A stretch of DNA of 64,000 nt from Granulicella sp. WH15 (GTDB taxonomy: Bacteria > Acidobacteriota > Terriglobia > Terriglobales > Acidobacteriaceae). The notes under the pieces are model-generated. The model made no database searches, was not told the DNA's origin, and saw only the letters and a program-made list of their open reading frames with translations. The stretch covers positions 1,054,001 to 1,118,000 of the forward strand of contig NZ_CP042596.1 of assembly GCF_009914315.1 (NCBI RefSeq), read 5' to 3'. The stretch's first letter is position 1. Every line of letters starts with the position of its first letter. Position numbers and translations under genes: made by a program. Below are positions 7,980 through 54,830 of the stretch, piece by piece.

Positions 7980-8055
7980 GGGCCTGTGGCGCAGCTGGGA
8001 GCGCGCTTCCATGGCATGGAAGAGGTCATCGGTTCGATCCCGATCAGGTCCACCA
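7980..8055 (+). tRNA. tRNA-Ala (anticodon GGC), 3' end is the likely attachment site
   Basis: A 76-base cloverleaf with CCA encoded: acceptor GGGCCTG pairs with CAGGTCC (one G-U), D stem GCGC/GCGC, anticodon stem CTTCC/GGAAG around loop ATGGCAT (anticodon GGC reads alanine GCC), and T arm ATCGG-TTCGATC-CCGAT. A tyrosine recombinase gene ends 7 bases after the tRNA, the usual arrangement for an element integrated into the tRNA 3' end. I searched the window by eye for a second copy of GATCAGGTCCACCA and found none. Confidence 0.95.
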
Positions 8056-8061
8056 ATTATT

Positions 8062-9444
8062 TCAATCATTTAGAAGCACCTCCCTTCCGCGACTTTGTCG
8101 CATCCTTGTCGCAAACTCCAAAACCACACCACGAGCAGCCTTTGCCGGAATCGCTTCCGCTCGCTCTGGCCGCCTGCTCTCGGCTCCTTGCGAAGCCTCC
8201 TGCGCAACCGCGACAGCGCGAGTTTCACTCGGGGGTCTAGACGGTACGGATGTCTTTCTGTCCTCCGGCGGATTCGGCCCGTTCGTTCCGGTGCTCACCA
8301 ACTCGGAGTAAATCGAGTTGATCGTCGAGCGCACCTCCGGTTCCAGAGACTGCATGTAAACGTCTGTGGTCGTCGATGCCTTCGAGTGCCGCATCATGCC
8401 CTGGATATCCTTGACATGACCCTTGTTCTTGCCAAGGGTAGCCATCGTGCGGCGGATCACCTGAAAGTTCAGCTTTGGAAGCTCCAGCTCCTCCGCCAGT
8501 TTGTTCAGCACGCGATGACGATAATTGCTCGTATCCATCGGCTGGCCAAACCGTCCGGGGAACATGAAGGCGTCCGGTGATGTGTCCTTGCCTTCCTTCT
8601 TTAACTGCTCTTTCCATTCCGCAAGCTCTTCCGCCAATACATCTGCGATAGGAACCTGAGTGATGCTCCCCTTGGTCTTGCCATACGGACGAATCTCCCC
8701 CCGATAGATCGTCTCCTGAATGTCCAGGATGCGTTCGGTCTGGAGGAAGCAGCGCCAGCGCAGGGGAAACAGTTCACTCGGTCGAAGCGCATTCGACATG
8801 TCGAGCTTGATGAGAATCCAGTCGCGCAGACTTTGCTGAGCAAGCCTGTCCAGAGCTGCGCGAAGCTGATCCCATGTCAGAGTCGTCTTATCGACCTCCC
8901 GCAGATTGGTTGGCACCTTGACCATACGCGCAGGGTCTTTGGGGAGAAAGTCCTGATCGACTGCCTCCGCGAAGATGGCCCGCATGTAAGAGCGAATCTG
9001 CAAGACTCTGTCCTTGGAACGGGTTTTGGCCAGCTTGTTGAGGTGGTTCTGTAGAGTGAACTTGTCGAAGTTCTCCATGCGGATCTCTTCGAACCCATCC
9101 ACGAGGTCAGCCTGAATCAGATACTTCTTGATCTTGGCCGTCTCCTCTCCTCTCCAGTCCGCCTCCTTCAGTGGCAGATAACGGTTGCGAACAAACCAGC
9201 CGAAGGTGACGGTCCCGTTTTTCACGGTTCCATCTTCGATGGTCTGCCCAGTCAGCTTGACGATCTCGCTTTCCAATTTCTCCCGAGCTTGGGTCTTGGT
9301 CATCTCCGACTTCAGACCGAGAGCAACGGGAGTCGAGGCCGTCCTTGATTCATTGGTTTCAGGATCGAGTACAGTACGGCGAAAGTAGCCATACCATTTC
9401 TTCCCTCTAACTGAAACCCAGCCCTTCTGGTAGGACTTGCCCAT
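8062..9444 (-). CDS. Tyrosine-type site-specific recombinase (integrase)
   Basis: Catalyses integration and excision of the element at the adjacent tRNA-Ala. 460 residues from the ATG at 9444, which has agaggaa 6-7 bases upstream; a start at 9474 lacks this. Seen: N-terminal arm-binding region with GWVSVRGKKWYGYFRR, SAM-like core-binding domain at about 130-200, and the catalytic domain with ALRPSELFPLRW (Arg I), KTKGSITQVPI (beta-hairpin Lys), FQVIRRTMATLG (Arg II, with Gln where His is usual), MMRHSKASTTTDVYMQ (His/Tyr nucleophile). An extra tail of about 90 residues follows the tyrosine. Transcribed away from the excisionase, toward the tRNA. Confidence 0.93.
   Translation of the reverse strand: MGKSYQKGWVSVRGKKWYGYFRRTVLDPETNESRTASTPVALGLKSEMTKTQAREKLESEIVKLTGQTIEDGTVKNGTVTFGWFVRNRYLPLKEADWRGEETAKIKKYLIQADLVDGFEEIRMENFDKFTLQNHLNKLAKTRSKDRVLQIRSYMRAIFAEAVDQDFLPKDPARMVKVPTNLREVDKTTLTWDQLRAALDRLAQQSLRDWILIKLDMSNALRPSELFPLRWRCFLQTERILDIQETIYRGEIRPYGKTKGSITQVPIADVLAEELAEWKEQLKKEGKDTSPDAFMFPGRFGQPMDTSNYRHRVLNKLAEELELPKLNFQVIRRTMATLGKNKGHVKDIQGMMRHSKASTTTDVYMQSLEPEVRSTINSIYSELVSTGTNGPNPPEDRKTSVPSRPPSETRAVAVAQEASQGAESRRPERAEAIPAKAARGVVLEFATRMRQSRGREVLLND
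8094..8115 (+). other. Candidate recombinase arm site: paired TTGTCGCA motif, left copy
   Basis: TTTGTCGCAT-CC-TTGTCGCAAA holds two TTGTCGCA octamers 11 bases apart, 39 bases inside the element from the tRNA end and within the end of the integrase coding region. A second copy with 20 of 22 identical bases is at 58944-58965 in the same orientation. Short paired repeats near both junctions are typical integrase arm sites. Function inferred. Confidence 0.4.
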
Positions 9445-9488
9445 GTATTCCTCTGTTCTGTGGGGGGAAAACAAGCGGGCATCTCTAT

Positions 9489-18162: not shown

Positions 18163-18924
18163 ATGACTTCCGAGGCCGCTGCGTTCTTCCCAAACACGAT
18201 CTCACGCGAGGACGAAGCGCGGTCGCCACAACCTCTCCCAGTATCTAAATCAGGACAGACCGTTCTCGCAGCAGAGCTTGCGACCGATTCCTATTCTTCC
18301 GAAAACGCAACCGTATCTCCGGCACCCGCAGAGCTGCCCGAAAGGATTGCCGAGTACAGCGATGATGTTCTGCTCAAGGAAACGGGGAAAGGAAACAAGG
18401 AAGCACTCTCAATTCTTTTCCGTCGATATGCGCGCCCCGTTCGCAATGTCGCTGCGAAAATTTTGAAGAATAAGCAGGAGGCCGAAGACCTGGTCCAAGA
18501 TGTATTCCTCTACATCTTTCGTAAGGCCGATCAATTCGACCCGGCACTAGGGAACGCCGGATCATGGATCATCCATGTGACCTATCATCGAGCATTCGAT
18601 CAAAGACGTCGGCTCAACTCACGTCACTTCTATAATGGGGAGGATCTGGAGAATGCAACAGTTCACCTCGCAGCACCTTATGTTCCGCCGAGAATCGAGC
18701 ACTCAATTCAAGGCGTCCTCGGTGCTGAGCTTCTGGAGAAATTCAATAAGCACCTCTCGGAAGACCAACGCCGCGTGATTCAACTCTGTGTCTTCGAGGG
18801 ATACTCCCTTAGAGATGTTGCAGAGATCACCAACCAACCAATTGTCAACGTAAGAAGCCAGTATTACCGTGGCCTGCAACGAATGCGGCGATACGTTCTG
18901 CCAGAAGCGTTTCGGTCAAAGTGA
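18163..18924 (+). CDS. ECF sigma factor of the lasso/TonB locus
   Basis: 253 residues. A disordered N-terminal extension of about 65 residues is followed by region 2 (ALSILFRRYARPVRNVAAKILKNKQEAEDLVQDVFLYIFRKADQFD) and region 4 (LSEDQRRVIQLCVFEGYSLRDVAEITNQPIVNVRSQYYRGLQRMRRYV). It should direct transcription of the receptor and isopeptidase genes that follow. Coupled to the anti-sigma gene through a GTGA overlap. In proteobacterial isopeptidase-type lasso loci the equivalent regulator is a FecI/FecR pair; here a zinc/RskA-type anti-sigma replaces FecR. Confidence 0.92.
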   Translation: MTSEAAAFFPNTISREDEARSPQPLPVSKSGQTVLAAELATDSYSSENATVSPAPAELPERIAEYSDDVLLKETGKGNKEALSILFRRYARPVRNVAAKILKNKQEAEDLVQDVFLYIFRKADQFDPALGNAGSWIIHVTYHRAFDQRRRLNSRHFYNGEDLENATVHLAAPYVPPRIEHSIQGVLGAELLEKFNKHLSEDQRRVIQLCVFEGYSLRDVAEITNQPIVNVRSQYYRGLQRMRRYVLPEAFRSK

Positions 18925-20225
18925 GAGATAATCGTCAAACGCTCTCAAGCCAAGGAGTGAAGTTTTTGCCGTCAAACACCCATGACGATTTTCTGCGGCT
19001 ATGCGCCCTCTCCACCACTGGAGAACTGACATCAGAAGAAGAGATAGAGCTGACTGAACATTTGCGCCACTGCGCAACCTGCAAGGCCGCACTCATTGAA
19101 TTTGAACAGGTCGTGGCCAGTCTCTTACCGGCGATTGCAGCGGAATCAGCGCCAGAGATGCAGGACGCCTCTGAGTCGGATGATTGGTCCATCGAAAACG
19201 CTGAAAAGGCGCTCTTGCAAGCTGTCGAACAGCATCATGAAGACAAAGCCGAGACGGACTTTCTCCGTTCGAAGTCACAGCATACGAATCGTATTCGTGC
19301 TTTTGCAGCGATCCTCGCAATCGGAGCCACCATCGGGACGGCAGCGTACTATGCCCACCATCAGGCCATAAACGAAGCAACATTACGGAAATCGCCAGAA
19401 ATTCCGGTCCAACCTCGCTCAGTTCTCCAGAAACCAGGCTCATCGCTTGTAGCCGTGCATCCGCAGGAATCAGCTTCCAACAACACTGCCGTGGAGGTTG
19501 CAGAACTTCGGCGTAGGCTGCTTCATGAGCAATCACGAAATGCGGCCTTGCAAAACGAATTGGCGCAAACACAAGATCAGATGAACCAGAGGGTAGAAGC
19601 TCTGGGAGATGCAGTCAGGGATCGAGATCAACTAAGGCAACAGGCCGCGCTTGATTTGGCCGAAAAGACTGCCCTGAAAAACAAACTGGTCTCTCTCGAA
19701 ACAACGGCACCTGATAATACAGACCGCGTGAAAGCCCTTGAAGCGCAGGTGACTGTCCTCAACGCGTTGGCAGAGGAAAAAGATAAGGCTATCGCTCAGG
19801 AGGCCGAGCTACTCCAGCATGACCGGGAGATTCGCAATCTGATGGGCGCTCGTAATCTCTATATTGCAGAAATCTATGATGTCTCCAAGACCGGGAGCAC
19901 ACAGAAACCATTTGGCCGAGTCTTCTACACCAGAGACAAGTCGTTGGTCTTCTATGGCTTTGATCTCGATCAACAGAGTCATGTGAAGACGACAAGTGTT
20001 TTTCAGGCGTGGGGACGTAAAGATGCTGAGCACGATGTCAGTCTTGGCATCCTGTACCAGGATGATGCAAGTCATAATCGCTGGGTATTGAAGTTCAATG
20101 ATGCTGCAACCCTCGCTCACCTCGACGCGGTGTTTGTGACGATTGAACCAAGCGGGGGCAGTCCCAAGCCAAGCTCAAAACCTCTGCTATTCACATATCT
20201 AAAGCTCCCCGCCAATCATCCATAG
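18921..20225 (+). CDS. Membrane anti-sigma factor, zinc-finger and RskA-like, with coiled coil
   Basis: 434 residues from a GTG overlapping the sigma stop (18921-18924). Seen: zinc-binding H47-x3-C51-x2-C54 (EHLRHCATC) for cytosolic sigma capture; one membrane helix at about 125-145 (AFAAILAIGATIGTAAYY); a long predicted coiled coil at about 185-300 (VAELRRRLLHEQSRNAALQNELAQTQDQ and similar heptads); and a C-terminal periplasmic domain like RskA (SVFQAWGRKD, VFVTIEPSGGSPKPSSKPLLFTYL). The long coiled coil could reach to the receptor. It presumably releases sigma when the receptor engages its ligand; this is inferred from layout. Confidence 0.88.
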   Translation: MRDNRQTLSSQGVKFLPSNTHDDFLRLCALSTTGELTSEEEIELTEHLRHCATCKAALIEFEQVVASLLPAIAAESAPEMQDASESDDWSIENAEKALLQAVEQHHEDKAETDFLRSKSQHTNRIRAFAAILAIGATIGTAAYYAHHQAINEATLRKSPEIPVQPRSVLQKPGSSLVAVHPQESASNNTAVEVAELRRRLLHEQSRNAALQNELAQTQDQMNQRVEALGDAVRDRDQLRQQAALDLAEKTALKNKLVSLETTAPDNTDRVKALEAQVTVLNALAEEKDKAIAQEAELLQHDREIRNLMGARNLYIAEIYDVSKTGSTQKPFGRVFYTRDKSLVFYGFDLDQQSHVKTTSVFQAWGRKDAEHDVSLGILYQDDASHNRWVLKFNDAATLAHLDAVFVTIEPSGGSPKPSSKPLLFTYLKLPANHP

Positions 20226-20334
20226 ACATTGTGTTAATTCGTGGCTTCTTCGAGTAGGAGATGTCACATTTACTCGCAGCCTCAACGTAAGTGAGATGAA
20301 CACCCACATCTCTCTTTGATTGAGGAGAAATACC

Positions 20335-23300
20335 TTGAAGTATTTGTGTGCCATTTTTCTCAGTGTCGCGGCCATATGTTTCACAACTTCAGTAATAGCG
20401 CAGTCAACAACAGCGACAATCAGCGGTCTCGTGCTTGATTCGGCAGGCAAAGTAATCACAGACGCGGATGTCGCAATATTGAACGAGGCTACAGGACTTC
20501 AGTACAACAGCAAGACGAATAACGTTGGCCTTTATGCTGTCTCGATACTTCCACCAGGACAGTATCGCGTTCAGGTCTCGAAAAATGGATATAAAACAAT
20601 CATCAAGTCTGATACAACCCTGAATGTTCAAAGCGCGGTTGCTCTAAACTTCACCCTTCCTGTAGGCGCAGCATCTGAAAGCATCACAGTCGAGGGGGAG
20701 TCTTCACTGATAAACACCACTGACGCCTCGGTCAGCACGGTAGTCGATCATGCCTTCGTTGAAAACATGCCCCTAAATGGCAGAAGCTTCCAAGACCTCA
20801 TTGCAATGACGCCTGGTGTCACAACTCAAAGCTCACAACAAACAGCAGCAATCGGTGAGCAGGGAGACTTCAGTGTCAATGGCCAGCGAACGGAATCAAA
20901 TGCATATTCGGTAGATGGAGTGTCGGGAAACATCAATGCGGGATACCCAAATGGATATCCCCAAGCCGCTACGGGCGGCACAGTTGCAGCCGGGACTGCA
21001 TTAGGTACTACCCAAAGTCTGATCTCAGTTGATGCATTGCAAGAATTCAGAATCAGCAGTTCGTCCTACTCCGCAGAGTTTGGTAGAAGTCCGGGAGGAC
21101 AGATTTCTCTTTCAACAAGGTCTGGAACAAACATCCTGCACGGCACTATTTTCGATTATCTCCGTAATGATATTTTCGATGCGAACGACTGGTTCAATAA
21201 CCACAATGGTGCGCCTAAGACTGCCATTCGGCAGAACGACTTTGGCGGTACAGTCGGTGGTCCGATTAGAATAGGGAAACTCTATGATGGTCGTGATAAA
21301 AGCTTCTTTTTTGTGTCCTATGAAGGGCTGCGACTCGTAGTACCGACAGCAGCGACAACACAGTATGTCCCGTCACTAGCAGTCAGAGCAGGAACGACAG
21401 ATACCCTCAAGCCGATCTTCAGTGCCTTTCCTTTACCGACAGGACCAGAAATACAGATTCCATGCAGTACAGGAACTAATAATTGCCCTAATGGACAACC
21501 TACAGGCACCCTTGTGCCCAGTGGGCTTTCATCGTTTGTCAAGAATTATTCGTTACCGGGAGACATTGATAGCACATCAGTCAGGTTAGATCATCGGATA
21601 TCGTCCAAGCACAGCGCCTTTTTCCGCGTTGGGTATACCCCAACAACAGCAAGTAGCCGCACTCTATCTTCGCTCGCCAAGCAGTCATTTAAGACCACGA
21701 CCTATACGTTCGGAGTCACAAGTCAGCTAACCAACAACATCAGTAATGAATTTCGATATGGATATGCTGAAAGTAAATCGGACAACAATGTAAGTCTCGA
21801 TACTTTTGGCGGCGCTGTGCCGATCGATATGGCGGCTGCGTTTGGAATACCCGCTAGTTACCCAAGCACCCAGCCAGAACCCTATTTAACCGTATCGGGG
21901 GTGGGGACGACATACGTTTACCCCTACCATGTAAATAATCAACTAGCCCAGACAAATGTGACAGACACCTTTGCATTGACAAGGGGACATCACTCTTTTC
22001 GACTAGGAATTGATTATCGACACTTCGATTCCCCCTTGAATCCGCCGTTATTTACGGGGTTCGGCTTTTTCTATACGCGCCAAGAAATGTTGAGCAATAT
22101 TACAGATAGTATCCAGCTCACAAAACGAATAGGCTCTGATCCTATATTCAACCAGTTTTCCGCATTCGTTCAGGATGAGTGGAAGGTACTTCCTGCTTTG
22201 ACGGTATCAATGGGCGTTCGATGGGATATATCGCCACCACCCAAAGGGTCAAACGGAAATGATGCTTATGCTTTGAGGGGGAACCTATCCGATCCATCCT
22301 CAATTACTGTCGCGCCAAAAGGCACCCCTCCATGGAACACGGCATACTTCAATTTTGCGCCCCGGTTAGGCGTAGCATGGGTTGTACATCCAAGTTCAGG
22401 GTGGGAGACAGTCGTTCGTGGTGGTGGTGGCGTCTTTTTTGACACAGGGAGCCAAAATGCAACTCTTGGATACACGGGCATTGGTTTCCAATCAACAAAG
22501 ACGGCGTCCTCAACTCCTCTGCCCTTTACTCCGGCTCAACTTGACTTCTCTGTATCTGCATCTGCGCCCTATACGTCCGATGTAGCATACGGTTTTCCTC
22601 AACATCTTCAGTCGCCATATACCCTCGAATGGAACGCTGCTGTGCAGCAGTCACTAGGGAAGTCTCAAGCACTAACACTTACTTATATTGGGTCAAACGG
22701 ACGGCGACTTCAACAGGCCCAGATCATACGCAATCCAAACTTCGAGCTTCTATATTATTTCCCTAGTGGCGTAACCTCTAACTACAACGCCCTACAGGCC
22801 ACACTTCAGAGATCAATAGTCAGGGGACTGCAAGGGCTGGCCAGTTACACATGGTCGCATTCCTTCGATTATGGTTCCACAAGTGCGTCTTACCCGGCCA
22901 CGTATGGGAATTCTGATTTTGACATCAGGAGTAACTTCCAAGCCGGACTGTCATGGACCCTTTCTGGCTATACCAATAACGAAGTAGTCAAATCTCTGTT
23001 GAACGGTTGGGGCCTAGATGGTCGTGTCAACGCACGAACGGCATTCCCAATCACCCTTACAGGCAACAGTCTTTTTGATGCGAGCGGAAGTCTCTACTAT
23101 AGCGGCGTGAATTACGACAGTTCACGACCTACATATTTATATGGAAGCCGATATCCGGGAGGAAAGGCAATAAATGGCGGTGTAAATAATCCGAATACGC
23201 CCGCCTTCTATTTGCCCACAGGTACATCAGCCGGTAATGCGCCGAGAAACCTGGTCAGGGCATTCGGTGCCCTTCAGATCAATACGGCTGTCAGAAGAGA

Positions 23301-23514
23301 ATTCCGCCTCTATGAAGGGCTTAACCTTCAATTCAGAGCCGAGGCGTTCAACGTTCTGAATCATCCCGTCTTTGGTTATGTCGATCCAACCCTTACTGAC
23401 GCACTCTTCGGCAAGACAACCAAGACCTTGAGCCAAAGCTTGGGGGCATCAAGTGCTCTCTATCAACAGGGAGGACCACGATCAATGCAGTTTGCCTTAA
23501 AGCTATTGTTCTAG
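20335..23514 (+). CDS. Oar-type TonB-dependent outer-membrane receptor
   Basis: About 1059 residues. TTG 20335 is preferred: aggaga lies 7 bases upstream and the product then starts with a good signal peptide (MKYLCAIFLSVAAICFTTSVIAQ). Domains: carboxypeptidase-regulatory-like fold at about 30-110 (ISGLVLDSAGKVITDADVAILNEATG), TonB plug at about 120-260 (MPLNGRSFQDLIAMTPGV, FSVNGQRTESNAYSVDG), then a large beta barrel ending in the outer-membrane signature FALKLLF with C-terminal Phe. Oar-like receptors are abundant in Acidobacteriota. Its place between a sigma/anti-sigma pair and an isopeptidase-like gene suggests uptake of the lasso peptide or of a peptide-bound ligand. Confidence 0.92.
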   Translation: MKYLCAIFLSVAAICFTTSVIAQSTTATISGLVLDSAGKVITDADVAILNEATGLQYNSKTNNVGLYAVSILPPGQYRVQVSKNGYKTIIKSDTTLNVQSAVALNFTLPVGAASESITVEGESSLINTTDASVSTVVDHAFVENMPLNGRSFQDLIAMTPGVTTQSSQQTAAIGEQGDFSVNGQRTESNAYSVDGVSGNINAGYPNGYPQAATGGTVAAGTALGTTQSLISVDALQEFRISSSSYSAEFGRSPGGQISLSTRSGTNILHGTIFDYLRNDIFDANDWFNNHNGAPKTAIRQNDFGGTVGGPIRIGKLYDGRDKSFFFVSYEGLRLVVPTAATTQYVPSLAVRAGTTDTLKPIFSAFPLPTGPEIQIPCSTGTNNCPNGQPTGTLVPSGLSSFVKNYSLPGDIDSTSVRLDHRISSKHSAFFRVGYTPTTASSRTLSSLAKQSFKTTTYTFGVTSQLTNNISNEFRYGYAESKSDNNVSLDTFGGAVPIDMAAAFGIPASYPSTQPEPYLTVSGVGTTYVYPYHVNNQLAQTNVTDTFALTRGHHSFRLGIDYRHFDSPLNPPLFTGFGFFYTRQEMLSNITDSIQLTKRIGSDPIFNQFSAFVQDEWKVLPALTVSMGVRWDISPPPKGSNGNDAYALRGNLSDPSSITVAPKGTPPWNTAYFNFAPRLGVAWVVHPSSGWETVVRGGGGVFFDTGSQNATLGYTGIGFQSTKTASSTPLPFTPAQLDFSVSASAPYTSDVAYGFPQHLQSPYTLEWNAAVQQSLGKSQALTLTYIGSNGRRLQQAQIIRNPNFELLYYFPSGVTSNYNALQATLQRSIVRGLQGLASYTWSHSFDYGSTSASYPATYGNSDFDIRSNFQAGLSWTLSGYTNNEVVKSLLNGWGLDGRVNARTAFPITLTGNSLFDASGSLYYSGVNYDSSRPTYLYGSRYPGGKAINGGVNNPNTPAFYLPTGTSAGNAPRNLVRAFGALQINTAVRREFRLYEGLNLQFRAEAFNVLNHPVFGYVDPTLTDALFGKTTKTLSQSLGASSALYQQGGPRSMQFALKLLF

Positions 23515-23582: not shown

Positions 23583-25973
23583 ATGATTCGATCTATATTT
23601 GCGTTTATTTCGATTGCCCTATTCGCATACATGAGTGCTCAAGGAGCACCCCAACATCCGTTTGGCGTCAAAGATTCGATTGAGATGAGTCGATTTTCAC
23701 CCCTAGTTCAGACAGACGACCGTTCACTCATCGCATTCTCACCGGACAAGAGATACTTCACATTCGTAACCTCTCGGGGTGACATCTCTACCGATCAGAT
23801 AGTGTCCAGCCTTTGGGTATACGATGTGCAGAATGTTGAGCGCAATTTGAAGCTGGAGGGCGGCGCAATACCGCCTCCACGCCTACTCGCTAGCAGAATG
23901 GCAGTTCCAAAGCGAGGGCCGTCATACTTCTCTTACTCTTCGATCATAATGAACGTAAAATGGGGTCTTGATTCAAACTCCCTCTTCTTTATTGGTCAGT
24001 GTGCAAGCGGCGTGAGAACTCTATTCAAGGTTTCGCTTTCTACAGGCCACCTGCAAGCCATTACACCCAAGTCACATGACGTTGTGAATTATGTGGTCGC
24101 AAAAGACAAGGTAGTATACATAGCTGTCAATCGCAATAGACCCGATCAAGACATCGATGCTTCCGATAATAGACTCAATGCCGACGCTCTAGCCGCCAAT
24201 GGTCTACCAATAACCAAACTGCTGTTTCCCGGCGCAGGATACAAACCGGAGGTCCCGGAGCTGTGGATACAAAGCAATCGTGGAAACAGGAGAATATCTC
24301 GCCCTGCTGAAGACAAGCCACAACAACTGTTAACAGACCCGCTCGATGCTGCTCTGTCTGTTTCCCATGATGGGCATCTGGTTGTTCGATTACAGCCTGT
24401 TACTGAGGTCCCTCCGACATGGGACAAATATCAGCCTTCGCCAAGCACGCCGCACCTCCGAATAAGACCAGATCGGCAAGATGAAGACAATGTGTTAGGT
24501 ACAACGCTTCTAAACCATTACGTTGTCACCGATGCACATACCGGCAAGGATATTATCAAAATAAACGCCCCGGTTGGGCGTCATTTAGGCTATTTCTATC
24601 CACTTGAATCCAAGTGGTCTGAAGACGGCAGGTTTCTATTATTAACAAACACATTCTTGCCTTTTGACAGTGCACACAACGGAGATGAACCGCAGCGAAT
24701 CCATCCGTGTCTCGCCGCTATTGCTCAGATTTCAAGTAAGGCAGTTGACTGCTTGCGATACTTGGCGTCACCAACAGACACAACCGCCACATCACCTCCA
24801 ACTCTAATTGATAGTGAGTTCGATGGTAATACGGTCACCATAACGCTGAAGGATTCTTCCAAGACAGTCATAAGAGAGTCCTACCGCTATCAGTCCGGCA
24901 CTTGGGTGCCAGCGTCTTCGGCAAAGTCCGGGACTCAATCTGAGGGAAGCGGCATAGCGCCTCTACACCGCACACCCGGTATCGTCGCTTATATTCGCCA
25001 GACACTAAATGACCCGCCCATTCTCAAGATTGAGTTCAAAGGCCCAGAATCAAAAGAGGGGAGCTGGGACCCTAATCCTCAATTCAAAGACCTCAGATGG
25101 GGAGATGCAAATGTCATTCACTGGACTGACCGGAACGGCCATGACTGGCACGGAGGGCTCATAAAGCCTGTCGATTATGTCCCGGGAAAGAGATACCCTA
25201 TCGTCATTCAAATGTATTCATTCCACGATGGTCAGTTCATGACGGATGGTATGTCGCCTACGGCAATGCCTGCAAGACCGATCGCCAGCGCGGGAATATT
25301 CTTTCTTCAGGCATCCAGGCTTCCCGGACACACTTGGAATCAATCGGAGGCTCAAGACCATCTTGAAGGTGTTCTAAGCGTTATAGACAAGCTGGATCAC
25401 GAGGGCCTCATTCTGCCTGACAAAGTCGGCATCATTGGATTTAGCTTCACTGCATGGTACGTTGAAAATGAGTTGGTCAAGGCCCCAGAACGATTTGCGG
25501 CAGCAACCATAGCCGATGGCGCGGACAACAGTTATTCGCAATACATATTTCTCGACTTTGATAACCCAGAACTCCGTAAGCAAGCTGAGCTTATCAATGG
25601 AGCGCCGCCGTTCGGAAACGGCATAAATAGGTGGATTCAAAATGCCCCAGCATTTCAATTGGATAAAGTTGCAGCTCCCGTTCGGATTGAGGCGATAACG
25701 CCAGAGGCATTACTTGCAGAGTGGGAGATCTACTCATCCTTACATCAACAGCGGAAGCCAGTAGATCTTATCTACTATCCAACCGGACAACATCAACTGC
25801 AAAAGCCTCTCGAACGTCTAATCACAGGCCAAGGGAATGTAGACTGGTTTAGATATTGGCTTCAGGGTTATATAGACCCCGATCCGTCGAAACGGCAACA
25901 ATACATTCGGTGGGCCAAACTCAGAGACGATAACAGGCCGCGCATGGCAACTGGATCATCAGCGAGTCAATAG
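23583..25973 (+). CDS. S9-family serine hydrolase, probable lasso peptide isopeptidase
   Basis: 796 residues with a signal peptide (MIRSIFAFISIALFAYMSAQG), so probably periplasmic. N-terminal beta-propeller-like region to about 500, then an alpha/beta-hydrolase domain. Nucleophile elbow GFSFT puts the serine at about 621 (IIGFSFTAWYVENEL); GQHQL gives the catalytic His at about 737. The usual acidic residue (DxE in astexin isopeptidases) is not clear: the aligned stretch reads EAITPEALLAEWEIY. AtxE2-type enzymes open the macrolactam ring after uptake. It is 68 bases after the receptor and converges on the precursor gene, as in isopeptidase-type lasso loci. A general S9 peptidase remains possible. 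Confidence 0.8.
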   Translation: MIRSIFAFISIALFAYMSAQGAPQHPFGVKDSIEMSRFSPLVQTDDRSLIAFSPDKRYFTFVTSRGDISTDQIVSSLWVYDVQNVERNLKLEGGAIPPPRLLASRMAVPKRGPSYFSYSSIIMNVKWGLDSNSLFFIGQCASGVRTLFKVSLSTGHLQAITPKSHDVVNYVVAKDKVVYIAVNRNRPDQDIDASDNRLNADALAANGLPITKLLFPGAGYKPEVPELWIQSNRGNRRISRPAEDKPQQLLTDPLDAALSVSHDGHLVVRLQPVTEVPPTWDKYQPSPSTPHLRIRPDRQDEDNVLGTTLLNHYVVTDAHTGKDIIKINAPVGRHLGYFYPLESKWSEDGRFLLLTNTFLPFDSAHNGDEPQRIHPCLAAIAQISSKAVDCLRYLASPTDTTATSPPTLIDSEFDGNTVTITLKDSSKTVIRESYRYQSGTWVPASSAKSGTQSEGSGIAPLHRTPGIVAYIRQTLNDPPILKIEFKGPESKEGSWDPNPQFKDLRWGDANVIHWTDRNGHDWHGGLIKPVDYVPGKRYPIVIQMYSFHDGQFMTDGMSPTAMPARPIASAGIFFLQASRLPGHTWNQSEAQDHLEGVLSVIDKLDHEGLILPDKVGIIGFSFTAWYVENELVKAPERFAAATIADGADNSYSQYIFLDFDNPELRKQAELINGAPPFGNGINRWIQNAPAFQLDKVAAPVRIEAITPEALLAEWEIYSSLHQQRKPVDLIYYPTGQHQLQKPLERLITGQGNVDWFRYWLQGYIDPDPSKRQQYIRWAKLRDDNRPRMATGSSASQ

Positions 25974-26058: not shown

Positions 26059-26202
26059 CTAGTCTCCCAGATCGCTATACGATGGCGGCGTTGTTTGATT
26101 CCCCGTGCCCAGTTCAGCGACGCCAATTTTGGCGATGCCCTGAATGGCCGCAGTTGCATCAAGCACAGTGACCACAGCGGGTGCAATATACTTTTTCTGC
26201 AT
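26059..26202 (-). CDS. Putative lasso peptide precursor (47 residues)
   Basis: ATG 26202 is preceded by an ideal aaaggaga at 7 bases. Leader: MQKKYIAPAVV carries the YxxP motif read by the B1 recognition element. The best core starts at Gly22: GIAKIGVAE gives Gly1 and Glu9, a 9-residue macrolactam ring, then a 17-residue tail rich in Gly, Thr, Pro and Ser that ends in Asp47, as astexins and benenodin also end in Asp. Odd: position -2 of the leader is Ile, not the usual Thr, so the cleavage site is inferred only from ring geometry. The gene is last in the biosynthetic operon rather than first, and no second precursor was found nearby. Confidence 0.78.
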   Translation of the reverse strand: MQKKYIAPAVVTVLDATAAIQGIAKIGVAELGTGNQTTPPSYSDLGD

Positions 26203-26303
26203 AACGAATCTCCTTTCCTTTGAATTTCTAAGAGTCTGGATAGGAATTCCTCTCCAAAACACTCAGAGCTTTGAAACTCGATAAAGTGAAAGTGTGCGAT
26301 GGA

Positions 26304-26309
26304 ATTATA
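26304..26309 (-). promoter_or_regulatory. Possible -10 box for the precursor gene
   Basis: A perfect TATAAT on the minus strand overlaps the cyclase stop codon and lies about 102 bases before the precursor ATG. No good -35 hexamer is seen at 17 bases (CAGAAA). It would allow the precursor to be made in excess over the enzymes. Confidence 0.3.
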
Positions 26310-28149
26310 CACATTTGACCGAGCTGTTTCTGATCCAAGATTCAAAAAGGAGAAGTCTCATCAGGCCAACGACATTTCCTTGGCCGATACCGTTGGCGCA
26401 ATCGCGGAATTGTGAGATATATGTCTCTCTTTTTACAATCTTCTTCTGCACAGCGACTGAATGATCCAATATTTCAGTTAGCTTTTCACTGACATCTTGC
26501 AAGGCAAGTGATATACCACGCACAGCATATGCTTTACGGCTCCTATTGAGGACTTCTGCTGGGAGGAGCGAGGATAGCGAACGGCGCTGCAATGACCGCT
26601 TGTGTCTAGGACGCAACAACTGTTCTCTCGGTATGCGAAATAAGAAATCATCCACATCCCTATCCAAGAAAGGATAACGATACTCCCAGCGTCTTCTATA
26701 AGAGGGATATAAATGGGGCAAGGTTTCTTGGATGATCCACCATGTACGCCCATTCTCGATTCGACTGGGTGGAAGAAATGGTGTTTCATGAGAAAGCATA
26801 GTCCCATCCGTGGTGAGGCTGCCTGCGTTCATCCAAGGAGGAAGCAACTCGGTATTGAGCTTCTGTGGTCGATATAGTTGAGCGAGATACGCGAAAACAT
26901 CCGCGATCATAAGTAAAAGGGGTAGCCGCTTCGGCAAGCACCACAATGTGCTCTTTGCTAATAGAGTTGGAATGCGACCCGTAATCATATAGTCGCCCAA
27001 TTCAGGGAGAGGGTTAGGGACCCCACCCATCACCTCATCACCCCCGGTTCCAGAGAGTATGACCTTGTGTTTATCGGTTCCAATCGCCTCTATCAGGCGA
27101 CGCTCACGCAAAGGCCAGGAACTATCAGCACCCGGCAGAAGATAACACCCATCACTGGGAGGAACGCTGTCAAAGGTTCTCTCGACATACGATGCCTCCA
27201 TGTGCACGCCTGCTTTTCCCCTAAGAGTTTCGACAGCATGGACAAACGGTAATTCATCGATTTCTGGCTCTCGATCATCGTAGTAGGAAATTGTATCGAG
27301 CAAGTCTGTGTCATTTGGATCGTCACTTCTGCGAATGTGATCTGCCATGCAAACAATCGAGCTTGAGTCCATTCCACCGCTCAACTCAGCAAGTATTGGC
27401 GCACCAGATCCAATCCGTCGCTTCACTGATTGGCGAAATAAATCAAAAAAGTGATTTTCGTATTCCTTGTCGTTGTTGTAATGGATCTCTTCTTTTGCCA
27501 TCCATTGCCAATGTGCCATCGAACTGCTTTGTCTGTCCCTGAACTTGAGATAATGGGCTGCTGGCACGAGGAACACACCGGAATATGGAGTTCTGCCACA
27601 GAGGGGCTGACATGCTAGATAGCGTGCCATGTAGCCCTCATCTAGCTGACGGCTGAATCCATCGGCGTGAAATGTCTCAAGAAATGTTGACCATAATAGA
27701 CCTTTATCAGATTGTTCATAATAAAGCGACCTAGTCCCCGCATGATCTCGCGCTAAATATAAGGAGTCTTCATGCCTCGACCAAAGTGATATCGCCCAAT
27801 CGCCTATCAAACGAGAAAAACACTGTTCTCCCCAACGCTCGAATGCCGCTAAGATAAGTGTGGAATCCGAAACATAATTATCAAGGCCAAGTTCGCTCGA
27901 TAGTTCTACGTGATTGTCCAGGCGACCATCAAGAGTCACAATATTGCCCGAGTCATCAACCATCGGACCATGTTCAAGGTGAGATCGTTGATGAGTGTGA
28001 TAAGGCTGGAAGCCCATCCCGATGCGAGAACCTCCGCGAACTGATGTCCCGTCAGCAGCGTAGCGACTGGTAGCCATGCTCAACGCCATGAGCTGAGCTT
28101 CATCTACGTGTTCGTTGTCATTCCGCTTTAGACCGAAAATAATGCTCAT
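26305..28149 (-). CDS. Lasso peptide cyclase, asparagine synthetase B-like (C protein)
   Basis: 615 residues from ATG 28149 (gagggg just upstream). The protein adenylates the core Asp/Glu side chain and closes the macrolactam ring. Seen: N-terminal glutaminase-like fold (MSIIFGLKR, SRIGMGFQPYHTHQ, GNIVTLDGRLDN, SRLIGDWAISLWSRHEDSLYLARDHAGTRSLYY) without the catalytic Cys2 of true asparagine synthetases, as in all lasso cyclases, and the ATP-pyrophosphatase motif LSGGMDSSSIV at about 252-262 with ILSGTGGDEVMGG later. Located between the precursor and B2 genes; 15 bases after the B2 stop. Confidence 0.92.
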   Translation of the reverse strand: MSIIFGLKRNDNEHVDEAQLMALSMATSRYAADGTSVRGGSRIGMGFQPYHTHQRSHLEHGPMVDDSGNIVTLDGRLDNHVELSSELGLDNYVSDSTLILAAFERWGEQCFSRLIGDWAISLWSRHEDSLYLARDHAGTRSLYYEQSDKGLLWSTFLETFHADGFSRQLDEGYMARYLACQPLCGRTPYSGVFLVPAAHYLKFRDRQSSSMAHWQWMAKEEIHYNNDKEYENHFFDLFRQSVKRRIGSGAPILAELSGGMDSSSIVCMADHIRRSDDPNDTDLLDTISYYDDREPEIDELPFVHAVETLRGKAGVHMEASYVERTFDSVPPSDGCYLLPGADSSWPLRERRLIEAIGTDKHKVILSGTGGDEVMGGVPNPLPELGDYMITGRIPTLLAKSTLWCLPKRLPLLLMIADVFAYLAQLYRPQKLNTELLPPWMNAGSLTTDGTMLSHETPFLPPSRIENGRTWWIIQETLPHLYPSYRRRWEYRYPFLDRDVDDFLFRIPREQLLRPRHKRSLQRRSLSSLLPAEVLNRSRKAYAVRGISLALQDVSEKLTEILDHSVAVQKKIVKRETYISQFRDCANGIGQGNVVGLMRLLLFESWIRNSSVKCV

Positions 28150-28164
28150 AAGGCCCCTCATTGC

Positions 28165-30072
28165 TCAGCAACGCTCTAGCACTAAATAGCTACTGACAAC
28201 ATAGTTCCTATCGTTGATAACGGAGGGTCCTATCTGAACCCAAGCGTGGAAGTCAGTTGGAAATAATCTTCCGCCAACTACGAGATCGGCATCCCAGCCG
28301 TATGTTCTCAATAAGAGTGCTAAGGCGGCAGAATGCTGGAGGCAGCGAACTCGTTTGACGTATAAGACGCAGGCCATATCCACCGCAAAACAAAGCTCAG
28401 AGCTAACGGATGCACGTTTCTTGATCGGTGCGACTGATCGAAATGCACCCATTGTCCTATAGACAAGCTTTGCGCCCCCTATATGCATAACTAAGTCAAT
28501 AAAAAGCAGAAAACAATAAGCTTCACAAACCAGCTCTGCTTTATGCATGAGGCGCAACGATGATATGGATTCCCTGGCAGGGCTTGAAGCAGCAATCTCA
28601 ACGACGGCTGTGTCGTGTGGCTCCGCGGCACTGACCAGTGGGAATTCGCTGCTTGGATAAGCATCTGGACGCGAGCCGTCACATTGAGTTGACAGTGGAG
28701 AAACTGAAATTGCTGAATTGGACAGAGCATCTTTTACTTCCTGTAACTCGACGCTTCTGTCTATGTGACGTACGATGCTGCGCGCATATCGCAGATATCC
28801 ATCCTCGTTACGTCGTTCTGAATGCAGCCAGTCACCTTTTCCATAGAGGGCCGTGACGGCTGCGACAAGTGGCATCAGGGCGAAGGCGACATCCATCCTG
28901 GAGGATGGAACTAGGGGCGCCCAGATAATCTTGTAATAGCTTTTTAGATCACTTTCGATACTAGGCCGTGTTTCGGCGGGACTTCTAAGAATCAAATGTT
29001 GAAGAGCAACTAAAGGATTTCCAACATAAGTCTCCTGCCAGTCAGTAATCCTGCAACGGAGGCCGTCAAACAATATATTGCCGCGATTTATATTTCCATG
29101 CACTACACCGTTTGGAATGCGGAGATCGTTCATTCGAAGACATGCTTCCTGAACCATCGTGTCCAAATAGCTAATCCGTTCAACGGAGAGCTGCGGAAGT
29201 CGTGTGGATCTTTGTTTTGACATTGCCTCTGCCACATAGGAAAAAAGTTCAGAGCAACGTCCGTGCATGAATGCAGGGCTCCGATCTAATGCTCCTGCTT
29301 GAAGAAGCTCATTTGTATATTTCGTACTATCAAATTGCAACTTCGCCATTACCGCGACAGCCTGTTTTAGCTCTGTCAAGCCCGGTTCCAGGCTAATGGG
29401 TTCACCAAAATCTTCCATAAGCCATGCGCTCCACTGTTGATGTGCAGCAATCAACGGAGGCAACGCTTCAGGGTTCTTACTAGCCAGCAGTTGAGTGATG
29501 GCTAGTTCAGTCTCGCCCTCCCCTGAAAGCGCCTTGAGCCAGTAGACCTTGCCCTCGTTTGTGGAGAACCGAAGTAAGGTGCTCTTGTTTCCCGCGTTAA
29601 ATTGCCTAATGCCCGCTGGGAGCGAAACCGTCTGTCCTGTTTCATCCTGAATCCATCGAATCGCATCATGCAGCCATCCAATGCGATAAAGAGGCCCTCT
29701 TTCCTTTTGATCGCCATTGAAAAGAGCGATTATGGATTCCCGCTGTTGAGGCGAAAGCTCTGAATCATCCAATTGCTCCAGGCGAATGCGGACCATCCTA
29801 TTGTGCTGTGGCAAAGAGAGTATCTCTGCCACAGCACAATCAGGGAAACTGGAAAGACCTGGCAGAAGGTCAATCAAATAACTTTTGATGTCCCACGTAT
29901 CGAATATGGCCTGCTGGAGCGACGCCGCCACTCTTTCCCACTTCGGGACCAGACAGAGCGGTAGCTTATATTCTCCGGCGTTGCGTGTGACTAGAATTTC
30001 CTTTGACTCCGGTACGACCAAGACAAGTCGGAATGGTTCCATGTCGGTTCCAAGATCGTTCTCTATAGGCAT
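28165..30072 (-). CDS. Lasso B2 leader peptidase fused to a phosphotransferase-like domain
   Basis: 635 residues. Residues about 505-635 are the lasso B2 transglutaminase-like cysteine protease: CLQHSAALALLLRTYGWDADLVVGG with Cys577, FHAWVQIG with His609, and VINDR with Asp621, the expected triad. Residues about 10-100 (FRLVLVVPESKEILVTRNAGEYKLP) resemble a NUDIX-like N-terminus. Residues about 150-450 look like an aminoglycoside-phosphotransferase fold: VVHGNINRGNILF at about 323-335 and CRITDWQETYVGNPL. The catalytic Asp of HGD is Asn here, so activity is doubtful. The fused part may modify or hold the peptide. gga-gga precedes ATG 30072, 4 bases after the B1 stop. Confidence 0.85.
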   Translation of the reverse strand: MPIENDLGTDMEPFRLVLVVPESKEILVTRNAGEYKLPLCLVPKWERVAASLQQAIFDTWDIKSYLIDLLPGLSSFPDCAVAEILSLPQHNRMVRIRLEQLDDSELSPQQRESIIALFNGDQKERGPLYRIGWLHDAIRWIQDETGQTVSLPAGIRQFNAGNKSTLLRFSTNEGKVYWLKALSGEGETELAITQLLASKNPEALPPLIAAHQQWSAWLMEDFGEPISLEPGLTELKQAVAVMAKLQFDSTKYTNELLQAGALDRSPAFMHGRCSELFSYVAEAMSKQRSTRLPQLSVERISYLDTMVQEACLRMNDLRIPNGVVHGNINRGNILFDGLRCRITDWQETYVGNPLVALQHLILRSPAETRPSIESDLKSYYKIIWAPLVPSSRMDVAFALMPLVAAVTALYGKGDWLHSERRNEDGYLRYARSIVRHIDRSVELQEVKDALSNSAISVSPLSTQCDGSRPDAYPSSEFPLVSAAEPHDTAVVEIAASSPARESISSLRLMHKAELVCEAYCFLLFIDLVMHIGGAKLVYRTMGAFRSVAPIKKRASVSSELCFAVDMACVLYVKRVRCLQHSAALALLLRTYGWDADLVVGGRLFPTDFHAWVQIGPSVINDRNYVVSSYLVLERC

Positions 30073-30076
30073 TTAC

Positions 30077-30343
30077 CTATCCTCCAAAACCCTGCGGCAA
30101 GCAATTCTTCGCACGAAGGTCATCGAGGAAGGCCCGCACATCATTCGCAATTACGTTCGTTTCTCCACCAGTAGCCTGAGCGATACTCTCAATAATCTCA
30201 GCCGTCGTTTGGCCTTCATTGAGCCGCTGCCATACAAAGGCCCCAGTGGAATTGATCGGCACAATCGCATTGCTGTCCCGATTGAAGAGAATCCCGCCGT
30301 CCTGCTCCCGTGCCACATGAAGACGTACACCAGAGGTACTCAT
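30077..30343 (-). CDS. Lasso B1/PqqD-like RiPP recognition element
   Basis: 88 residues of the PqqD fold: VRLHVAREQDGGILFNRDSNAIVPINSTGAFVWQRLNEGQTTAEIIESIAQATG, followed by a helix VIANDVRAFLDDLRAK. PqqD/B1 proteins bind the leader YxxP motif and deliver the precursor to the B2 protease and cyclase. Good ribosome binding site (aggagc) before ATG 30343. Directly followed by the B2 fusion gene. The 233 bases upstream, before the 520-residue gene, contain two TTTGGCCAA motifs but no gene. Confidence 0.9.
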   Translation of the reverse strand: MSTSGVRLHVAREQDGGILFNRDSNAIVPINSTGAFVWQRLNEGQTTAEIIESIAQATGGETNVIANDVRAFLDDLRAKNCLPQGFGG

Positions 30344-30576
30344 CGCAATTGCTCCTGATCTTCATTCCAGAGAAAGAAGCTCCGGTGCAGGTCAGAGTAA
30401 GTCGAATATGGAATTATGCAAGAGCTATTTTCCGTTTTGGCCAAAGGTATTTGACGCTAATGGGTATTCAGTAACTTACGCAATATGGCTGCACTGAAAA
30501 TGGTGCAACGTCATTTCGGCATTGGCCAAAGTCATTGCTGGACCACAGACATGCAGATGGTTACATGCATAAGCTG

Positions 30577-32136
30577 TCAGGCAGGAGTTGCGATGCCAAC
30601 GACGCGGCTGACCTCATTCACCTGGTTCTGCGAAAGCGTCATCCTTTGGCTCATCTTCCTTGGGTGCGGGATCAGAACATAATGCTTGTCATTGACTTCA
30701 AGGTAACCGCAGAAAATCTCGTTTCCCGTGCGCAGCGCATAGACCGGACGACTCCAATCGGTCTTGGAGCGGTCCTCTCGCGTGTCCGGGATTCCCTCGA
30801 TGGGTTCCAGAAGAAGCGCGGCACCGGCAGGAATCAAGGGGTCGAGTCCATTGAAACGGTCGCTTTGGTGGAGACGCAGCACCTGGTTGCGCATGGACTG
30901 AAGCCGGGGAAATTTGATCGATAGCAGCGTAGGCCATTCTCCCCAGGTGTGGCGAAGCGAATCCCATCGCTCTTCTGGTTCGGGCGTCCTGGCTCGTACA
31001 GATGCCTCTGGGAGATCGATCAGACGATTTGCCCGCAACAGCGTGTCGAGCGAGTAGAGTGTGCGCTCCGGTCTGATTAGATGAAGGGTGCGCAGGCTAT
31101 CTGTGTACCGGGCGACATAAGAGAGACTGAGGGCAATCAGCGTGCCTGTATGCGGTACGGACTCTGTGGACCGTCGATAGCGCCTTCGCGTTCTGTCACT
31201 GATATTGATATGAAGTGCGTCCTCAAGCACCTTCCGAATGGTCTCCCAATCTTCGCGTGGTCGTTGGAAGCGCAGATACTTTGTGGCGAACAACTCAGGC
31301 AAGGAGCTTTGTTGCCACGGCAAAATCAAGGGTGCTCCGTGGCGCGATGCTGGCAGGGTCTGAAGCGAGGCCGCCCTCACCAATGGCAACTCCATCGCAA
31401 ACATGCGGATTCGGCCCGCAATTCTCACCTCTCCCGGATACCTGAACTCGTGTGGGCCGACATAACAACCGCTGGCGAGAATCAGGGACAACTTGCCTTT
31501 CGATACGCTGCAACTACAACAACGATATCCATTGCCGAACTGGAGAAGATAGGTTTTGTCCGGGTCGGGATGGAGTTGCTCTTCCTCGGAGATAGGCTCC
31601 ACAGACGCAATGGCCCCCGGCGGGATTCGCGCTCCCAAACTGTCTTCAGTCCCGATTTGCAGGTAGAACATCCCCGGTGTCTGCCATCTCTTTCCGTCAA
31701 TTGTCCGGATCGGTAAATCGGTTTGCCAGTCGGGTATAACCTCTGCCATCAATGCATTGCGTTCGAACACTTCGTCCTCCCCGAAGCGTGAAGGGAGATC
31801 GATCAGCATGTCTCGTTGAAAGGGATAGGATTCGATAATCCGCGTCCGCTTCTGGTTCAACTGAAGGTCATAGTCCAGCATTAGGGGCAGGTTGTATCCG
31901 AAGAGTTGATGGGCTCCGTCCAGGGTCAGCCAGAAATGGCGAGACGCCTCTGCGATCACATGCGGCATCGGGTGAAAGGACGGCCCGTGCATGTTCGCGG
32001 CGAGGTGATGGTAAAAAGCCTCCCGCTCCGCCTGCGCGACACGCTCCACTTCAGTAGCGGGGGACATTTCACGGAAGAGACTTCTCAGGCGAGCCAAGAC
32101 GTCAAGAACAGTGTGACGAGAAACAGGCCGGTACAT
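30577..32136 (-). CDS. Unknown 520-residue protein with LexA/S24-like segments, lasso operon
   Basis: ATG 32136 is chosen because ggagga lies 10 bases upstream; a GTG at 32154 is possible. The N-terminus (MYRPVSRHTVLDVLARLRSLF) is helical. Near residue 175, DSLGARIPPGAIASVEPISEEEQLHPDPDKTYLLQFGNGYRCC followed by LSLILASGCYVG and RYPGEVRIAGRIR resembles the S24/LexA beta fold with a Ser in the DSxG position. A second similar stretch is near residue 440 (IPAGAALLLEPIEG, YALRTGNEIFCGYLEV). It could be a regulator or a peptide-processing accessory. It is the first gene on the minus strand before B1, 233 bases away. No function is assigned. Confidence 0.7.
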   Translation of the reverse strand: MYRPVSRHTVLDVLARLRSLFREMSPATEVERVAQAEREAFYHHLAANMHGPSFHPMPHVIAEASRHFWLTLDGAHQLFGYNLPLMLDYDLQLNQKRTRIIESYPFQRDMLIDLPSRFGEDEVFERNALMAEVIPDWQTDLPIRTIDGKRWQTPGMFYLQIGTEDSLGARIPPGAIASVEPISEEEQLHPDPDKTYLLQFGNGYRCCSCSVSKGKLSLILASGCYVGPHEFRYPGEVRIAGRIRMFAMELPLVRAASLQTLPASRHGAPLILPWQQSSLPELFATKYLRFQRPREDWETIRKVLEDALHINISDRTRRRYRRSTESVPHTGTLIALSLSYVARYTDSLRTLHLIRPERTLYSLDTLLRANRLIDLPEASVRARTPEPEERWDSLRHTWGEWPTLLSIKFPRLQSMRNQVLRLHQSDRFNGLDPLIPAGAALLLEPIEGIPDTREDRSKTDWSRPVYALRTGNEIFCGYLEVNDKHYVLIPHPRKMSQRMTLSQNQVNEVSRVVGIATPA

Positions 32137-32662
32137 GATGCTGCAATCCTCCACACGGGGATCTCTGCTAGGGAAGTTGCTTATGACACAGACGGGGAGT
32201 ACGGCAAAACAGCAAGATCAAGCTGCCAACGTCGGATCGAGACTGACATCATACGATGCCAGTCTCGGCGAAATCCGCGTCCATCCTCAGCAGATGCATG
32301 AGACACGAACTTAGACGCAGGAAAATATCGTCTGGAAGCGGCCGCCGCATCCGTGCGCTCCGCAAACGTTTGTCTTGGCGGGTGCTCCTGCTCTATCGGC
32401 ACAATGAACCCGCAAGTTCAATACCTGTCTTTTCTCCGGTCGCTTCGAAAAATTTTGGCGAAAAGCTCTAAGACCAGTTGCTATGAGGCGCTGACGCGCG
32501 GCTTGGCCCCACTTCGGTTCGCAAGGGTGGACGGCCCATAGAGCTGGCCCTTGTGGAGTCCATTCGGGACGAGCGCCGACTGCGCGCCAAACGATGGTGC
32601 GTGTTTGGCACTTGCCGCGCCTGCCACTCCGGCCTCCCCACCCTCGCTCGCCTCGTTCTGCT

Positions 32663-54817: not shown

Positions 54818-54830
54818 GGATGGAAGTAGT

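Follow-up and report, generated by a model that had tools for sequence, protein, structure and literature searches.

In the proteobacterial AtxE2/astexin-3 system, genes for an isopeptidase and a TonB receptor lie beside a lasso peptide cluster. The same association is found in the locus described here, a lasso-type gene cluster of Granulicella sp. WH15 contained in the 64,000-nucleotide stretch from position 1,054,001 to 1,118,000 of contig NZ_CP042596.1; this whole stretch is called the window below. The Granulicella system differs in being acidobacterial and in having a split B protein, and its isopeptidase aligns by sequence to AtxE2 (5TXC) with E 5.5e-26 and 94 bits. The Ser, Glu and His columns agree in that alignment, and these we take to be the catalytic triad of AtxE2-type isopeptidases.

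The lasso class is defined by a ring joining the α-amine to an acid at residue 7-9, as described in PMC9266682. The bsf system of Bradymonas, reported together with Acidobacteriaceae precursors having Ile or Val at leader position -2 (Duan et al. 2023, PMC10368454), resembles the Granulicella locus in its Y-x-x-P-x-L leader at -17/-14/-12, Ile(-2), separate B1 and B2 proteins and a kinase. According to that account the cleavage site of BsfB2 follows Ile(-2)-x, and cleavage of BsfA depends on Ile(-2). Since Ile/Val(-2) in Acidobacteriaceae lasso leaders, with a leader geometry of -17/-14/-2, was described there, this feature is not new. From its gene sequence BsfA is a Gly1-Asp8 core lacking Lys, whereas the clade of the window has a core Lys. 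BsfK is HPr-kinase-like while the window kinase is like an aminoglycoside phosphotransferase (APH), with that fold in place of the HPr-kinase-like fold and motif of the PadeK/BsfK type. In the text consulted of PMC10368454 we found no mention of the spacing of Lys to acid. The soil-metagenome biosynthetic gene cluster (BGC) 482.1 (Negri 2022, PMC9064862) likewise has B1, an aminoglycoside-phosphotransferase-like kinase, B2, C and precursors after C; its ring prediction relied on a Gly suitably spaced from an Asp, and the passages describing it mention no fusion. Three of the group II BGCs (Negri 2025, PMC12670498) have a prolyl oligopeptidase (POP) gene between core genes, as do relatives of the window cluster. 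By the same source, E. coli yielded no product from the group II BGCs when the peptidase genes were omitted.

We find that the precursors of the window's clade hold a Lys at a nearly constant distance, 6 or 7 residues, before an Asp or Glu. We did not find this rule in the main texts of the open-access literature that we searched; acidobacterial lasso clusters, Ile/Val(-2), APH-like kinases and POP genes were already known.

Precursors and the spacing of lysine to acid

The precursor (26059..26202, minus strand) reads MQKKYIAPAVVTVLDATAAIQ up to the predicted cut after Gln21 and GIAKIGVAELGTGNQTTPPSYSDLGD beyond it, and has an AAAGGAG-like site upstream. The leader has the motif Tyr5-x-x-Pro8, corresponding to Tyr(-17) and Pro(-14), and position -2 is Ile20, not Thr. 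Within the core there is a Lys at position 4 and a Glu at position 9, a spacing of +5 from Lys25 to Glu30, and the acid lies within the canonical range of 7-9. The codons of Gly22, Lys25 and Glu30 are 26137-26139, 26128-26130 and 26113-26115, respectively. The core ends SYSDLGD, where most relatives end A-Y-x-x-D-E, and its calculated mass minus water is 2542.2551 Da ([M+2H]2+ 1272.1348). The initial annotation called this precursor novel. That is upheld for close homologues, in that a search of 5.8 billion proteins, restricted to sequences sharing exact words, returned only the precursor itself, but at the family level a hidden Markov model (HMM) finds relatives in 75 other loci.

For sampling of relatives, matches were found to the kinase-B2 protein in 26 of 150 genomes and to the cyclase alignment in 70 of 398 genomes of the family (E <= 1e-60), the strain's own being included in both counts. 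We annotated 94 loci and 22 kb of the window by tblastn. The clade is defined on a tree of 121 cyclase rows, in which that of the window comprises 78 rows with support 100; the tree was made with FastTree only, and long branches were flagged. The precursor HMM was built from 27 seeds chosen by eye (26 lying downstream of C, plus that of the window) and used, at E <= 1, to search every short frame in the 94 loci. One L197 precursor without Y-x-x-P was dropped, and 100 distinct cores were obtained after merging identical ones and adding the window. Five of these (from L198 and L200) lie outside the clade and were placed in the control set, leaving 95 clade cores; L182 (Lys12-Asp18, Phe at -2) was kept among the 95, though the tree does not include its cyclase.

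A Lys is found 6-7 residues before Asp or Glu in 93 of the 100 cores, compared with 17.0 +/- 3.7 for 2000 shuffles of the core bodies (maximum 29). The best other residue type at a fixed distance to the acid reaches 57/100. The rule persists on removing similar cores at three thresholds (78/83, 57/61 and 51/54), the last compared with 9.2 +/- 2.7 on shuffling. Within the clade the spacing is +6 or +7 in 91/95 and +5 to +8 in 95/95, or 90/94 and 94/94 when restricted to tree-placed loci. The cores departing from +6/+7 are those of the window, L188 and L191 (+5) and L032 (+8). By contrast with this near constancy, the acid of the pair sits anywhere from core position 8 to 18 after the predicted cut (17 in L032). 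On the cyclase tree (76 rows) the distance from leader to acid changes at least 42 times, and that from Lys to acid 18 times. Any Asp or Glu at core position 7-9 is present in 31/95 clade cores and absent from 64/95. Usable residues in homologous loci were a point on which the initial annotation had staked its prediction; for canonical rings they are largely lacking, and what is found instead is a Lys that precedes an acid by 5-8 residues.

The leaders of the clade follow the consensus Tyr(1)-x-x-Pro(4)...[Ile/Val](16)-x(17), after which the core begins. Tyr is present in 93 and Pro in 94 of the 95, the length is 17 residues in 91 and 16 in four, and position -2 is Ile or Val in 94 and Phe in one. 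Cores that obey the rule come from strains including Edaphobacter aggregans DSM 19364 (L068), Silvibacterium bohemicum S15 (L069), Granulicella sp. L60 (L070) and Terriglobus albidus DSM 26559 (L071). The 32-residue core of Silvibacterium bohemicum (L069/L169) starts STGNHPHGKRLMILD, and the cyclised full core has a calculated mass of 3322.5636 Da; the leader of this precursor has no Pro(-14), and the B2 of the locus forms a fusion with POP.

Seven of seven new cores from further loci obey the rule at E <= 1, including two from a locus whose title reads Candidatus Acidiferrales; the rows of L118 and L077, which were excluded from this test with E above 1, do not show it. Outside the clade we assembled 34 controls, comprising the five cores above and 29 of 31 candidate rows from 60 loci, 21 of which gave any; two low-scoring rows, L216 7328 and L252 1859, were dropped by eye. 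The Lys rule holds in three of the controls (two in L198), Thr(-2) is present in 23, and an acid lies at 7-9 in 32, a figure somewhat favoured because the leader score for the 29 new controls included one point for a ring acid. Within the rule, Glu is seen at +6 in 15/63 and at +7 in 4/30, a preference that looks too weak to use.

The gene cluster and its kinase-B2 fusion

The lasso-type gene set lies on the minus strand in the order U525, B1, kinase-B2 fusion, cyclase C, precursor. Genes for the isopeptidase, the TonB receptor and an extracytoplasmic function (ECF) sigma/anti-sigma pair (18163-20225) run convergent to this operon. The features are as follows.

26059..26202, minus: precursor A, 47 amino acids from ATG; leader geometry common to other cores
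26305..28161, minus: cyclase C, Asn-synthetase-like, SGGMDSS loop; best NCBIfam match NF033535, nested in the 78-row lasso cyclase clade
28165..28560, minus: B2 leader-peptidase domain, residues ~505-635 of the 635-amino-acid fusion; NF033537 48 bits, PF13471 55 bits
28708..30072, minus: APH-fold kinase domain, sharing its open reading frame (ORF) with B2 and covering residues 1-455; PF01636 22.9 bits (cut-off 23.2) and fold search
30077..30343, minus: B1, PqqD-like RiPP recognition element (RRE; RiPP, ribosomally synthesized and post-translationally modified peptide); PF05402 57.9 bits (cut-off 23.4)
30577..32154, minus: U525, 525-amino-acid protein, lying upstream in the cluster; a possible ATG start is at 32136
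23583..25973, plus: lasso peptide isopeptidase, AtxE2-like S9 peptidase; NF033523 and the AtxE2 5TXC alignment
20320..23514, plus: TonB-dependent receptor with carboxypeptidase-regulatory domain; PF25183, PF13620
18163..18924, plus: ECF sigma factor, probable regulator; PF04542, PF08281
18921..20225, plus: probable anti-sigma factor; PF10099

The initial annotation had proposed a complete lasso locus, and the precursor, PqqD-type B1, cysteine-protease B2, cyclase and isopeptidase are all found where it placed them, in a minus-strand operon met by the isopeptidase gene. Matches of B1 and B2 exceed the curated cut-offs (for B2 and NF033537, a cut-off of 33), and the Cys, His and Asp of what is presumably the B2 leader-peptidase triad are all present. 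The cyclase and isopeptidase have lasso families as their best matches but fall below the NCBIfam cut-offs: NF033535 is the best NCBIfam match of the cyclase (E 2.4e-77, 261 bits, cut-off 525), and NF033523 scores 168 bits (cut-off 400) for the isopeptidase. Taken with the AtxE2 alignment, these matches assign the cluster to the lasso type, and recurrence of the same gene set and order in many related loci argues that it has not arisen by chance. On this sequence evidence we regard the locus as confirmed to be a real and apparently complete lasso-type RiPP gene cluster. The original list of parts was incomplete, omitting the kinase domain fused to B2, U525, the TonB receptor, the ECF sigma/anti-sigma pair and the integrated element discussed below.

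Gene content and gene order can be read off directly, as can the motif statistics given above. Among 79 clade loci (the window included) we find RRE in at least 75, isopeptidase in at least 69, TonB receptor in at least 67, kinase in at least 64, POP in at least 48 and U525 in at least 23. These are lower bounds, as loci end at fetch or contig borders, and some U525 matches are weak; L042, L043 and L183 are counted here, with no separate core from them. The precursor lies 3' of C on the same strand in 95/95 clade cores, and the isopeptidase converges in all 83 of 83 having one. The gene order, which had been thought unusual with the precursor last and converging on an isopeptidase, is therefore ordinary, and indeed the rule, for the clade. 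U525 has no Pfam or NCBIfam match; it is 38-47% identical in its eight long matches, and part of the clade retains it upstream of B1. Relatives often carry a gene for an S9A POP of ~675 amino acids between kinase and B2. The window cluster has no POP gene; of POP homologues in the genome, the best shares 34% identity along part of the protein.

B2 forms the C-terminal fifth of a 635-amino-acid ORF (28165-30072), fused to the APH-fold kinase domain. Of 64 clade loci with matches to both, kinase and B2 share a frame only in the window, and a stop codon separates them in the two relatives that were read directly. Neighbouring genes share a frame elsewhere, as POP-B2 (L035 and L169), B2-C (L061), kinase-POP (L177) and B1-B2 (L192), which suggests a shared pathway for kinase and POP.

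The kinase domain itself has changed at a key position. In the column of the catalytic Asp there is Asp in 63 of 65 rows, a gap in one (L063, a broken copy), and Asn in the window alone, where Asn327 (codon 29092-29094) replaces it; Lys180 and Asp344 are retained. The model of the fusion has a mean pLDDT (predicted local distance difference test) score of 74, with the B2 part mostly under 60. Searching with it returned APH-fold kinases such as macrolide phosphotransferases, and the RiPP enzymes TvaE (rank 46) and LxmKY (rank 48) were within the first 50 PDB matches. LxmKY, from lexapeptide, and TvaE belong to lanthipeptide-like and thioviridamide-like pathways and not to lasso pathways; they share the APH fold with the window kinase, which has lost the catalytic Asp. 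No second match to the kinase-B2 protein was found in the host genome at E <= 0.001. The window domain is probably catalytically dead and retained as a fused scaffold. The C-terminal Y-x-x-D-E was considered as a kinase site and rejected, as the motif also occurs in loci without a kinase.

Some further kinase loci may be described here. In L063 (7525-8891) the kinase gene is split into two frames, and a closely similar cluster, L045, is present in the same genome. Kinase relatives also occur in stretches without a recognised lasso cyclase (L051, L054, L060, L064 and L065), three of which share a contig with a lasso locus; they may belong to other RiPP systems. Outside the clade, L215, L216 and L234 have Val(-2) and canonical D8/D9 cores that end in LG[LV]D[DE], with kinase matches that are weak (43-77 bits), and it is possible that these clusters are intermediates.

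Closure of the ring

We infer the cleavage point, the amine, threading, uptake and opening as follows. B1 would hold the Y-x-x-P leader, B2 would cut after Gln21, and the cyclase would activate Glu30 and join the acid to an amine. For most clade members this amine would come from the side chain of the conserved Lys of the core, which precedes the acid by 6-7 residues; 1-8 residues (11 in one outlier) would then overhang freely at the N-terminus. In the window it would be either Gly22, forming a canonical 9-residue ring, or Lys25, forming a ring of 24 atoms, and we consider these about equally likely. The receptor would probably bring the product back into the cell, and the isopeptidase would probably open it. 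As a whole, a lasso-type RiPP cluster with a Lys-side-chain ring in most of the clade, a Gly22 or Lys25 ring in the window and a fused dead kinase provides the best explanation, to which we give a probability of about 0.47. The stronger proposal is more tentative and falls some way short of an even chance: that the clade cyclases have changed acceptor to the ε-amine of the core Lys, making threaded or lariat peptides with a free variable overhang that are opened by the isopeptidase, with the window adding a dead kinase fused to the leader peptidase.

Ring size is consistent with the Lys as acceptor. Rings closed from the Lys side chain have 26 atoms with Asp(+6), 27 with Glu(+6) and 29 with Asp(+7), and over the 95 cores the Lys rings have 26-30 atoms in 91, 23-24 in three and 32 in one. 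By our own count canonical rings span 22-29 atoms, and the 9-residue ring of lihuanodin has 28 (PMC13352647). Closure on the α-amine from the same cut would require 25-55 atoms, with 29 or fewer in 21/95. Rings of 10-18 residues formed in that way would need neither a new cut nor a new acceptor and would leave the leader rule intact, the Lys being conserved for some other reason. However, we judge such sizes too wide to hold a thread, and the fixed spacing of Lys to acid would go unexplained; we think this highly improbable.

A more serious contender, which we hold to have a substantial if minority chance, is that α-amine closure is canonical throughout. The window would then have a Gly22-Glu30 ring, and in its relatives the N-terminus would arise from a shifted B2 cut or by trimming, for example by POP, such that the ring is always of 8-9 residues with the Lys at ring position 2-3. 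This would explain the constant spacing by known chemistry, and it accords with the mostly canonical D8/D9 cores of loci outside the clade and with the acid at position 9 in the window. POP is commoner where the extension is long, and the POP-B2 fusions of L035 and L169, in which the core Lys is at position 8 and 9, give more weight to trimming and less to a Lys acceptor. On the other hand, Ile/Val(-2) is kept at its fixed place in the leader in 73 of the 74 cores with an acid at position 10 or later. This would be unneeded for a shifted cut, making such a cut less likely. Moreover, 16 extended cores have no POP found in the locus (some loci are incomplete, and POP could sit elsewhere), and the residues that would become position 1 are not conserved and include Pro. 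For the window, the 9-residue Gly22-Glu30 ring originally predicted is possible and follows the published leader rule, but an acid at the canonical ring positions is present in only 31/95 cores of its clade.

The Lys might instead lie outside the ring bond, as a target of modification or a contact for receptor or isopeptidase. Lys acetylation confers self-resistance in other lasso peptides (PMC13352647). No acetyltransferase was found among the seven window proteins scanned, relatives not having been searched for one, and no other residue type holds such a distance to the acid. We consider this improbable. Slightly less so, though still unlikely, is that the cluster of the window is degenerating on its mobile element and no longer makes a product. 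This is consistent with the change of the kinase Asp to Asn, the running together of kinase and B2, the missing POP gene and the diverged core and C-terminus. Against it, the ORFs have no premature stops, motifs of the RRE, B2, cyclase and isopeptidase are intact, kinase Lys180 and Asp344 are retained, the ribosome-binding site of the precursor is good, and neighbouring enzymes are also fused in L035, L061, L169, L177 and L192. The +5 spacing, the kinase-B2 fusion, Asn327 and the lack of a cluster POP indicate that the window copy is either diverging, towards a canonical or small Lys ring, or decaying.

A number of observations weigh against closure on Lys as we have proposed it. The window core has neither the +6/+7 spacing nor the usual C-terminal Y-x-x-D-E, and two other clade members, L188 and L191, are plain Gly1-Asp8 cores with Lys at +5. 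The 21/95 cores noted above could close an α-amine ring of no more than 29 atoms, and five Lys rings exceed that size (four of 30 and one of 32). In these atom counts each core is represented by whichever pair comes closest to the rule. From the rule itself one cannot tell whether the Lys is an acceptor, is needed for something else or reflects trimming. A POP gene occurs in 48/79 clade loci, and cores are extended in 58/62 with POP compared with 16/33 without; corrected for the tree, independent pairs number 3.9 in the same direction and 0.1 in the opposite (median p 0.125), which is not significant. Both loci in which POP is fused to B2, L035 and L169, have long core extensions. In addition, the HMM seeds were picked by eye, and the literature searched yielded no chemistry or mass data for any clade member.

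The integrated element and implications for the clade

An exact 24-bp direct repeat of a tRNA-Ala end, at window 8032-8055 and at contig C1 1131246-1131269 outside the window, bounds an element of ~69.2 kb. This carries an integrase beside the tRNA-Ala, a TrwC-type relaxase and a TrwB-type coupling protein, and from these sequence features the lasso cluster is assigned as cargo of the integrated element. Its left end is made up as follows.

8032..8055, plus: 24-bp tRNA-Ala end, serving as left attachment site for the element carrying the cluster; exact copy 69.2 kb rightward
8062..9474, minus: tyrosine integrase of the element; PF00589

The same element has genes for RecA-like/ImuA, ImuB (IMS) and DnaE2-like polymerase in a row (window 40589-46336), presumably an SOS mutagenesis cassette. 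At 52442-58646 in the window there are ORFs that, judged by eye, resemble a type I restriction-modification set (R, S and M), with a possible nuclease gene.

Target masses for lasso clusters derive from predicted cores. With no acid at position 7-9 in 64/95 cores and yet a Lys 5-8 residues before an acid in 95/95, either the definition of the class, the mechanism of the cyclase or the path of maturation differs in this clade. The Lys-acid rule may also help to explain the absence of product from the group II soil clusters described in PMC12670498.

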